Positions 42,562 through 45,739 of a DNA stretch of 61,604 bases are shown in pieces. The DNA is from an uncultured Candidatus Saccharibacteria bacterium (GTDB taxonomy: Bacteria > Patescibacteriota > Saccharimonadia > Saccharimonadales > Saccharimonadaceae): assembly GCA_947304155.1 (NCBI GenBank), contig CAMZAD010000005.1:1-61604 (forward strand). Reading direction: 5' to 3'. Position numbers and translations under genes: made by a program. Positions within the stretch are counted from its first letter, which is position 1, and the number at the start of each line of letters is the position of its first letter. The notes under the pieces were generated by a model. It had not been told where the DNA came from. It worked only from the letters and a program-made list of their open reading frames with translations, and did not search any database.

Positions 42562-43809
42562 TTATCTCGCTACACAGCGAATCTTATATCCTTCGCCCTT
42601 ATAACCGTCACCAGATGGTGTTACACTGTTATTATTATCAATGCCCAAAACATATTGGAAACGCTCACCATGATTTGTTGATGAATGATATATACCGTAG
42701 TTGGTATAAGACAAACTACCACTCGACATATAACCAGTTTTGGTAAAGTGCGGCAATTCGGCCGTCACAAAGTCACTGTATTGCTGGCTGAGCATATAAA
42801 AATCGCCAGAATATTGATAGCCAGTTGGAAGCCTCCATCCTTTTGGACAGATTGACTTTTCTGCTGCTATATTATTTTGTGTCATACTTCGAGTACCCGT
42901 ACCAGCTGTTGCGACGTACCATGTATAGTAACCACTGTTATTTACAACATATGCATTTTCTAATCCAGTGTGCGGATTAAAGCCTGTTGACGAGCTTACT
43001 GGAATATCAAAATCCTCATCAACATCAGAATCTGCCGATGTTGCTTTATAGTTCGCAATTTTAAGGTCCTGAGTCATCCAACATTTGCCGTCTTTTAATT
43101 TTGCGACAGTATAAGTATTACCATCACGAAGATCAGTCAAAGTTCCAGTTTCATGAGTAATAGAGTTTGAGCATACTTCAGATGTGATTTGTTGCATATT
43201 ATGAAGCATACCAATCGTAACAGTTGGAGTTGCATGAGCAATAGCTGTAAAGGTCACTTTCTTAGAATAATCACCAGACGGTAGCAGGTTATTAATCTTT
43301 ACTGCAATGTTTACAGTAGTATTAACTTCAGAAGAGGTCGGGAGATGGTTAAGATTTCTGAGAGCAACCTGGTTTGCTAAGGTTGGGATTTTGCTAAAAT
43401 CAGTATTGTCGAGCGAATAAGCCCATTTGTTCGCACCCATAGTCGAACTAGTGACAGTCCCAGTAAAATCCGATGCGACTACGGAGCTAGATGTAAGACT
43501 TGTCATATCTGTAGTATTGTCTTCAGACGAGAAATATAGTTCATAGCCGCCAGTACTATTTGTGTCTACAGTTGCAATAAGAGGCTTAGATTCAAACACA
43601 CCTTCTGGAGATGGCGAAATATCAAATTGAAGGTTACTCGTGTTCAAAGTTAACGAAATCATCGGATTTACACTGACATTAACTTCAGCAGTTTTATCGA
43701 CAGCGTAAGAAAAAGTTATCGGCGCAAAAAGATTGAGTAAAAATGCACTAAAAGTAACTACGGATACGAAGGCCCCTGCCTTTTTAATAGTTTTTAGATT
43801 ATGGTTCAT
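42562..43809 (-). CDS. FISUMP-domain surface protein 3
   Basis: A 415-residue paralogue. Signal/anchor 10-35 (GAFVSVVTFSAFLLNLFAP). Beta domain 40-205 (PMISLTLNTSNLQFDISPSP, SGDYSKKVTFTAIAHATP). FISUMP domain 215-415: DLRDGNTYTVAKLKDGKCWM, SICPKGWRLPTG, YKIRCVAR. The start overlaps the end of FISUMP 2 by 11 bases, so translation is coupled. It is close to FISUMP 4, which suggests a tandem duplication. Confidence 0.85.
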   Translation of the reverse strand: MNHNLKTIKKAGAFVSVVTFSAFLLNLFAPITFSYAVDKTAEVNVSVNPMISLTLNTSNLQFDISPSPEGVFESKPLIATVDTNSTGGYELYFSSEDNTTDMTSLTSSSVVASDFTGTVTSSTMGANKWAYSLDNTDFSKIPTLANQVALRNLNHLPTSSEVNTTVNIAVKINNLLPSGDYSKKVTFTAIAHATPTVTIGMLHNMQQITSEVCSNSITHETGTLTDLRDGNTYTVAKLKDGKCWMTQDLKIANYKATSADSDVDEDFDIPVSSSTGFNPHTGLENAYVVNNSGYYTWYVATAGTGTRSMTQNNIAAEKSICPKGWRLPTGYQYSGDFYMLSQQYSDFVTAELPHFTKTGYMSSGSLSYTNYGIYHSSTNHGERFQYVLGIDNNNSVTPSGDGYKGEGYKIRCVAR

Positions 43810-45523
43810 CTTCAGGCCTCAAGACACAGCGAATAAACTCACCATCACCCCTAGATTGACCTTCATTAGTGTTAGCACCTTCTGCATAATGTACAGACAT
43901 CACAACTGTACAACAGTATTGTTCACCATATGCCCAGCATGGGCCCCTAGATGATGACGTAGAGTAAACAGCCCACTGTTCAGCAGAAGCAACATCAGCT
44001 TGTGGACCAGCGTAATTGCCTGCAAGCAAGAAGTTCAATGGATCCTGAAGAACGGTGTTTTCATCTGGATTATATAAGCTAATTAAGTTTTTATAGCTTC
44101 TAGTATCATTTGCATCACCTGTAGCAAGCTGCCACCCTTTTGGACAAATTGAATCATTCACTTCCGTTAAGGTGTCATACAAGCCCGTACCAGCAGTTGC
44201 CGCATTCCAGTTATAATAGTTTCCGGTAGATTCCCAGAGATATACATCAGTATTAGCGGTTGGAGTATCAGATTTTACTTTACCTCCCCTATAATACGCA
44301 CCAGAACCAGTACCTGTTGGGTGATACGAGAAGTCATATGGGCCAATATCAGAGTTTCCCGTACTCCAATAAATACCGACTGCAGTTTGAGTGTCACGGA
44401 CTGGAGTCCAGCTAGTTTTAGTATTAAGGTCAGTTAGCTCGTTAGTCAAAGTCACGTTTGTTGAGAGGTCGAGCGCCAAGTTTTGGCTCATCCAACAGTT
44501 GCCATCAGCGAGCTTTGAGACGAGGTAGTCTTTATTATCACGTTTATCACGCAACTTCTTGCGTGGAACATAAGTGTCGTCACCAATATGTTCACCAGTC
44601 CAGTCAAGCAAGGTCGAGTTAACATCTGGAGTAGTTGAGGCAGCACAGATTTCTGGAGTCAAATCTTGCATGTAGGTCACAGAGTGGAGTGCTGGAGTCC
44701 AAAGCGCAGTTAATGTTACACTTGGAAGGTCGCCAGCGTTAATATTTACGGAGAGCTCTTCGCCAGTAAAGGTATTAGTACCATCAGACCATCCACCAAA
44801 GAGATAACCAAGGCGAGTTGGTTTATAAGTTAAGAGATTAATAAGAGAATCATAAGCTTGTTCTGAGCTGGTATAGGAAACACCAGAAGCACCAGTGCCA
44901 CCATCAAGGTCCCAGTTTAATGTATAGGTGAGACAGGCTGGTTTTACGGCGAGGGTATAAACAATGTCGTTTGAATATGAACCTGATGGGAGGTTATTGT
45001 CTGTTTTAATACCAAATCTGATACTTAAACTATCTGGGTTAGCAGCAGCCGAAGAATCATAAACTGTAGCTGCGGAACTTGAAACTGGGACTGGATAATA
45101 ATTCGTTCCGTTATTCAATGAGTAGCCCCAAGAGTTGTTTACGAGGGCTGAGCCTGTAGTAGCACTAATTGTCTTGGTTTCTGAATCAGTTCCAATACGA
45201 GTAAGATTGTTGTCTGAGGCGGAGTTGGTTGACATCGTAACAGTAGCACCGTCAGTACATGAGTTGATAATACTGAGCGTGTCTGTGCCAGAGAAAACAG
45301 TTTGAGTATTGGTTGGAACGATAGCAATTTCCGAGGTAGCAGAAGTCGAGAGAGCAAGGTTATAGTTTACAGAACGAGTACCGCGGACAGTGATAGTTTC
45401 AGCATTAGTGCCAAAAGTTGGTGAATATAGCCAGACTGCTATGGCCGAGATAAGAAGAGTAGCCGAAAAAATACCAAGGCTAGTTACACCCCTATTAAAC
45501 CTACCTCTCCTTACTTCAATCAT
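43799..45523 (-). CDS. FISUMP-domain surface protein 2 with InlB-type repeat
   Basis: A 574-residue protein, first of three. Signal/anchor 14-35 (LGIFSATLLISAIAVWLY). Beta domain 45-200. Residues about 205-285 look like a Listeria-Bacteroides (InlB B-type) repeat: LNWDLDGGTGASGVSYTS, RLGYLFGGWSDGTNTFTGEE, VTLTALWTP. FISUMP domain 305-574: DKRDNKDYLVSKLADGNCWM, SICPKGWQLATG, EFIRCVLRP. -10 TATAAT (45535-45530) ends six bases before the ATG: predicted leaderless. An SD-like AAGGAGAGG lies inside the gene, a few codons after the start, as in dnaE. Likely a surface adhesin or stalk. Confidence 0.83.
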   Translation of the reverse strand: MIEVRRGRFNRGVTSLGIFSATLLISAIAVWLYSPTFGTNAETITVRGTRSVNYNLALSTSATSEIAIVPTNTQTVFSGTDTLSIINSCTDGATVTMSTNSASDNNLTRIGTDSETKTISATTGSALVNNSWGYSLNNGTNYYPVPVSSSAATVYDSSAAANPDSLSIRFGIKTDNNLPSGSYSNDIVYTLAVKPACLTYTLNWDLDGGTGASGVSYTSSEQAYDSLINLLTYKPTRLGYLFGGWSDGTNTFTGEELSVNINAGDLPSVTLTALWTPALHSVTYMQDLTPEICAASTTPDVNSTLLDWTGEHIGDDTYVPRKKLRDKRDNKDYLVSKLADGNCWMSQNLALDLSTNVTLTNELTDLNTKTSWTPVRDTQTAVGIYWSTGNSDIGPYDFSYHPTGTGSGAYYRGGKVKSDTPTANTDVYLWESTGNYYNWNAATAGTGLYDTLTEVNDSICPKGWQLATGDANDTRSYKNLISLYNPDENTVLQDPLNFLLAGNYAGPQADVASAEQWAVYSTSSSRGPCWAYGEQYCCTVVMSVHYAEGANTNEGQSRGDGEFIRCVLRPEDEP

Positions 45524-45529
45524 AATATG

Positions 45530-45538
45530 ATTATAGCA
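45530..45538 (-). promoter_or_regulatory. FISUMP cluster promoter, leaderless type
   Basis: Extended -10 TGCTATAAT on the minus strand, six bases from the ATG of FISUMP 2. Confidence 0.65.
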
Positions 45539-45558
45539 TAAGCCGAATCGTATTTACA

Positions 45559-45704
45559 ACAAAAAACCTCCAAATTTGGAGGTTTTTTCGCGCTGATGCG
45601 CGCCCACCCTGGGGCACATTGTTTTGTTTTAATCTGCTGTTTGTTTTTGAAATCTCCACACTCCACTAACTAATCAGCGGAACCCCTGTGAAGCGTATCA
45701 GCTT
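45559..45704 (-). ncRNA. Candidate small structured RNA, about 146 nt
   Basis: A complete transcription unit without a protein frame. Promoter TTGACC-17-TAAAAT lies at 45739-45711; predicted +1 is 45704. The RNA begins AAGCUGAUACGC, and GCUGAUACGC (45702-45693) pairs with GCGCAUCAGC (45601-45592) near its 3' end, nine of ten pairs. Inside, CAC-A-GGGG pairs with CCCC-AGG-GUG; UUCCGCU and AGUGGAG form a hairpin; an A-rich single-stranded stretch follows. A strong terminator (CCTCC...GGAGG plus T-run) ends it. 5'-to-3' closing stems are typical of 6S RNA and similar; I could not match it to 6S, SRP RNA, tmRNA or RNase P. Confidence 0.65.
45561..45588. terminator. Terminator of the candidate small RNA
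   Basis: AAAAAACCTCCAAA and its exact complement TTTGGAGGTTTTTT; strong stem with T-run. Confidence 0.85.
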
Positions 45705-45710
45705 ATGTTT

Positions 45711-45739
45711 ATTTTAATATATATTTTTTTGTCGGTCAA
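45711..45739 (-). promoter_or_regulatory. Promoter of the candidate small RNA
   Basis: TTGACC, 17 bp, TAAAAT on the minus strand, followed by AAACATAAG, the same initial string as gap and the FtsA-like gene. Confidence 0.75.

Follow-up and report, generated by a model that had tools for sequence, protein, structure and literature searches.

Does the DNA adjoining trmD in this Saccharibacteria genome contain an RNA gene and, if so, by what mode might its product act? In the window (the whole stretch of 61,604 nucleotides that was analysed), reading of the sequence places a small-RNA unit on the minus strand at about 45704-45559. A −35 hexamer, TTGACC (45734-45739), and a −10 hexamer, TAAAAT (45711-45716), lie on that strand with a 17-nt spacer between them, and the +1 is predicted at about 45704. 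Sequence, fold and BLASTN together predict a transcript of about 146 nt (45559-45704), which would comprise a conserved structured core of 111 nt (45592-45702, supported by BLASTN and by model R3, see below) and an intrinsic terminator with a 12-bp stem and a U run (45561-45588, from sequence and fold). These coordinates agree with the unit of the original prediction. The fold of the whole unit, terminator included, was not equalled by any of 200 shuffles (z = −5.07), and the same was true of the core alone (z = −3.03, 0/200).

The signals that flank the core were compared between 175 distinct homologous loci and controls. The mean upstream promoter score was 9.4 out of 12 in the homologous loci vs 5.7 in control windows, and a score of at least 9 was reached by 68% of the loci and by 1% of the control windows. 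Likewise, a terminator was present within 60 nt in 61% of the loci and in 5% of controls; it is the presence of the terminator, not its sequence, that is conserved among relatives. Thus, the promoter TTGACC-17-TAAAAT and the strong terminator (45588-45561), both read originally from a single sequence, are present on the minus strand and are conserved features of the family. A near-identical second terminator, AAAAACCTCCAAAATTGGAGGTTTTTTGTTG, was observed elsewhere in the same genome (G000:C2:133757-133788). In addition, GCTTATGCTATAAT is a repeated promoter-like element preceding genes, seen in the window at 45480-45560 and in G000:C2 at about 133800, and letters resembling GCTTATGC are also found in the promoter spacers of many homologues. 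Small ORFs do occur at the RNA locus, and a conserved protein frame was sought; every frame was open in fewer than half of the homologues. The core lengths of the homologues span all three residues modulo 3, which, taken with the absence of any open frame common to them, argues against coding and bears out the earlier claim that the unit contains no protein frame.

BLASTN with the locus gave matches in 141 of 199 genomes of the same family, a few of which were matches to the terminator only, and a pattern made from the 3' end was found in at least 117 stretches in GTDB, mostly titled Candidatus Saccharibacteria. Extraction from 160 loci yielded 137 distinct cores, 78-150 nt long. A covariance model with the closing stem P1 only (R1) matched 100 of the 149 genomes of Saccharimonadales. 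Model R3 was trained only on sequences from outside the window's genus. Searching the 770,681-nt genome with it returned the window RNA (E 1.3e-10) and no other match at E ≤ 1. Across the order R3 matches 118 of the 149 genomes, comprising all 36 Saccharimonadaceae and 82 of the 113 from other families. The gene is present in a single copy per genome, with the exception of G234, which has a second weak R3 match (E 0.008). When 380 genomes were drawn from across the phylum, 30 matches fell inside the order, and the 350 other Patescibacteria gave one match with E 0.001, which is at chance level; Patescibacteria were covered here by sampling with stricter filters, by which diverged copies may be missed. 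The RNA was found in none of five genomes from other orders of the class. Streptomyces, Variovorax, Serratia, other GC-rich genomes and one viral contig also gave matches to the DNA pattern, which were taken as chance; for those of them that were scored with R3, the best E was 0.005 or higher, or nothing was found. The comparison shows an RNA gene typical of the order Saccharimonadales, single-copy, structured and predicted to be independently transcribed.

The homologues fold in a constant order: P1, an asymmetric internal loop with GGUGGGC as its 3' strand, P2, and a large apical loop with AAAYAAAMA runs. In the window the 5' strand of P1, GCUGAUACGC (45693-45702, minus strand), pairs with the 3' strand, GCGCAUCAGC (45592-45601, minus strand), and P1 covaries. 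These are the complementary ends that had been noticed two bases after the predicted +1. P2 is formed by GGGG (45683-45686) and CCCC (45611-45614), likewise on the minus strand. Between P1 and P2 lies the unpaired strand GGGUGGGC (45602-45609), and within the loop closed by P2 lie two A-rich elements, AAAAACAAACA (45638-45648) and AAAACAAAAC (45621-45630), all on the minus strand. For motif counts we used 105 cores, gathered mainly by BLAST and the model and not by the collection pattern. GGUGGGC was found in 104 of them, AAA[CU]AAA in 102, and the second A-rich run in 83; the opposite, 5' strand of the internal loop shows no such conservation. P1 and P2 together make about 14-17 bp, and no conserved helix follows in the loop beyond them.

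Core length varies from 74 to 150 nt across homologues, the minimal members having 74-80 nt. Comparison of the forms shows that a long form, found in genera g1 and g11 and a few others, the window's genus included, carries an extra segment folding as a variable hairpin within the P2 loop (about 45650-45682, minus strand), which is missing from the minimal order-level forms. It can be seen that the closing stem of the original prediction stands, whereas its internal stem and central open region are better read as P2 plus the A-rich loop, with an extra 5' hairpin segment that is special to the window's group of the family. An H-type pseudoknot of P2 with a 5' hairpin, HA, was considered. In short-form members of the family HA scored 10.72 vs 9.80 ± 0.23 when permuted (0/3000), and its formation would be at the expense of the inner pairs of P1; the support for HA is modest.

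The second stem came to light through diverged members from other families of the order. P2 alone has at least six unrelated sequence solutions: GGGG/CCCC in Saccharimonadaceae and elsewhere GGCUCUU/AAGAGCC, GCGGCG/CGCCGC, GGGUUCA/UGAACCC, GCGGUA/UACCGC and CGCGACG/CGUCGCG, so that the order-level replacements stay complementary. In the order-level set, pairing of the 5' region with its own partner scored 18.3 vs 14.7 ± 0.47 with the partners of other genomes, above the maximum of 2000 permutations (16.65). Inside the family the same test gave 17.17 vs 16.90 and is powerless, P2 being nearly always GGGG/CCCC there; support for P2 therefore comes from the order-level set. Alignment A5 contains 88 distinct sequences and was fitted to model R2, hence leaning towards structure. 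In A5, 94.8% of cells were paired vs 80.4% in shuffles, changes on both sides were seen in 11 of the 14 pairs of P1 and P2, and 163 cells were changed on both sides vs 48 ± 9 in shuffles, a type of count that is inflated by kinship among the sequences. The covariation score was 0.388 vs 0.132 ± 0.009 in shuffles, and just 5-11 both-side-changed cells were left when the partners were slid by 1-3 columns. Alignment A3, built without structure, scored 0.090 vs 0.058 ± 0.008, above all shuffles, and further pair types in A3 did not exceed them (5 vs 5.7). Taken together, covariation of P1 and P2 is strong, the original prediction thereby passing the covariation test set for it, and the locus is almost certainly a genuine RNA gene.

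The neighbours of the gene differ from one group to another. Upstream is ligA in 28 of 40 order-level loci, and in 38 of 58 short-form loci there is a divergent gene for an RRM protein; long-form loci have obg, recG and others as neighbours. Of the 175 homologous loci, 39 have a same-strand tRNA-Ala(GGC) gene no more than 300 nt downstream, and that of the window is not among them. Directly downstream of the RNA in the window (42562-45523) are two adjacent minus-strand genes, named FISUMP-type in the original prediction. Promoter and terminator are conserved while neighbours vary, which points to a trans-encoded RNA gene. Compensatory changes, the gene's own promoter and terminator, the lack of a conserved ORF and the variable neighbours all match what marks a trans-encoded non-coding RNA, and the RNA very probably acts in trans.

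A search with the 4227 families of Rfam 15 gave no match to the locus or its relatives, apart from sub-threshold terminator-like matches. The RNA may thus be called new, as was first proposed, given covarying stems, no conserved frame and no matching Rfam family. In the window's genome, rRNA, tRNA, RNase P RNA, tmRNA and the L10 leader were located by Rfam, and the earlier statement that the locus has no recognised sequence match to 6S, SRP RNA, tmRNA or RNase P RNA was upheld by the Rfam models. The genome's tmRNA is elsewhere, at L051:12683-13045 (G000:C6, minus strand; Rfam 66.6 bits, missed by ARAGORN), with an SmpB-like frame at C1:80583-81071, and the tRNA-like end and tag reading frame of a tmRNA were not found at the locus. 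RNase P RNA (RF00010) has its own copy at C6:16356-16698 and was likewise rejected as an identity. SRP RNA (RF00169) had no match in the window's genome and none over the cut-off in 61 genomes. The Ffh M domain, the part that binds SRP RNA, was found in 0 of 20 genomes of the order with PF02978, with 14/14 controls positive; SRP RNA is therefore not expected in the order, and this identity is ruled out by the covariance model and the missing domain. For 6S RNA (RF00013), no match was found at E ≤ 10 in the window's genome, nor by cmscan of the locus and relatives.

How might the RNA act? Stems that drift in sequence together with unpaired segments that are frozen are expected of a scaffold that presents a binding surface. 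We favour, with a probability of roughly 0.4, a protein-binding ribonucleoprotein as the main mode of action. The RNA would be the RNA half of the particle and act in trans; P1 and P2 would form a scaffold free to drift in sequence, the invariant unpaired GGUGGGC and the A-rich loop would be contact surfaces for an RNA-binding protein, and the RNA may dock on or titrate that protein, much as 6S or CsrB-type RNAs do. A small ligand or another RNA would be just as plausible a binding partner for the invariant unpaired bases. With more reserve, we suggest that the RNA might be a new class of core RNP RNA, a global regulator or a structural RNA, working via the GGUGGGC internal loop and the A-rich loop in an order that has no SRP and no recognisable 6S.

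A protein partner might be sought in the RRM protein, often with a Gly-rich tail, that is encoded upstream and divergently in many Saccharimonadaceae (L083-L116 and others). It occurs in 130 of the 149 genomes of the order; the window's genus and certain others lack it. The divergent arrangement in the short-form loci would suit an obligate complex of RNA and RRM protein; against it, 17 of 36 Saccharimonadaceae genomes, the window's included, have the RNA without any RRM protein, and many genomes have an RRM protein with no detected RNA. The 17 RRM-less genomes refute an obligate partnership, which leaves this reading very improbable, though the protein could still bind the RNA where it is present. 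Hfq was not found in the window's genome by BLAST and phmmer.

Of the other readings, the best placed is a base-pairing RNA acting in trans, with the A-rich loop or GGUGGGC as seed for mRNAs. A stand-alone gene with its own promoter and terminator and conserved unpaired segments would be in keeping with it, but it would be unusual for a seed to stay the same throughout an order, and counts of complementary sites, made for two motifs in one genome (the window's), gave no excess: 35 vs 30.7 expected for GGUGGGC and 6 vs 7.4 expected for the A-rich loop. Moreover, CCCACC occurs near the start in just 2 of 659 predicted genes of that genome. We regard such pairing as unlikely. Partial 16S and 23S sequences contained no perfect complement of GGUGGGC or of the A-rich loop. 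Next in rank comes a functional analogue of 6S RNA, which would bind RNA polymerase holoenzyme as a mimic of an open promoter. By analogy, the paired ends and open region would fit, and the role may be vacant given that no 6S match was found in the window's genome; however, in the minimal members, of 74-80 nt, the open region is an A-rich loop with no further helix after it, and we consider this function doubtful. Last of the three is a cis-acting leader, riboswitch or attenuator, in which an aptamer and terminator would control the downstream gene. The terminator directly after the core, the compactness of the aptamer-like fold and its invariant unpaired bases recall such a leader. Yet the class of the downstream gene is not conserved, as the minority of loci with tRNA-Ala and the FISUMP-type gene in the window illustrate, and past the terminator the FISUMP gene seems, by eye, to have its own promoter-like sequence. 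Control in cis is thus highly improbable, and the protein-binding ribonucleoprotein stays the preferred reading.

Saccharibacteria are streamlined, tiny epibionts of the candidate phyla radiation. That genomes smaller than about 1.6 Mb keep a single-copy RNA gene across most of the order suggests an important function. Annotators gain a new RNA family for which a working covariance model exists, and those who work on cultured Saccharibacteria gain a defined RNA target.

Comparison with known systems places the RNA as follows. 6S RNA, of about 150-200 nt, has an open central bubble between two long helices, binds RNA polymerase and templates pRNA. The new RNA is, like it, stand-alone, and shares its paired ends and open region; it is shorter (core 74-150 nt), has no helix beyond the open region, and has the A-rich loop and GGUGGGC where 6S has a promoter-like bubble. 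For these reasons, and with no RF00013 match, the 6S-like architecture of the original prediction is not retained. With 4.5S SRP RNA it shares the size class and the stand-alone gene, and differs in that the sequence of the GNRA-capped helix 8 is absent from the cores. The proposed mode, unpaired motifs shown on a scaffold, is that of the titrating RNAs of CsrB/RsmY type; in contrast to these, the GGA motif is missing in 37 of 40 order-level members, and no Rfam match over the cut-off was obtained. Structured RNAs with no assigned function have also been predicted from metagenomes as anonymous candidates (e.g. the 3161 candidates of PMC8040213); the main text of that paper, on which the comparison draws, names no Saccharibacteria, and unnamed overlap is possible. 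A literature search of partial coverage found no published description of the RNA. Stand-alone structured RNAs are a kind already known; as far as the searches extend, this family is new with respect to Rfam 15, and so are its architecture and motifs.
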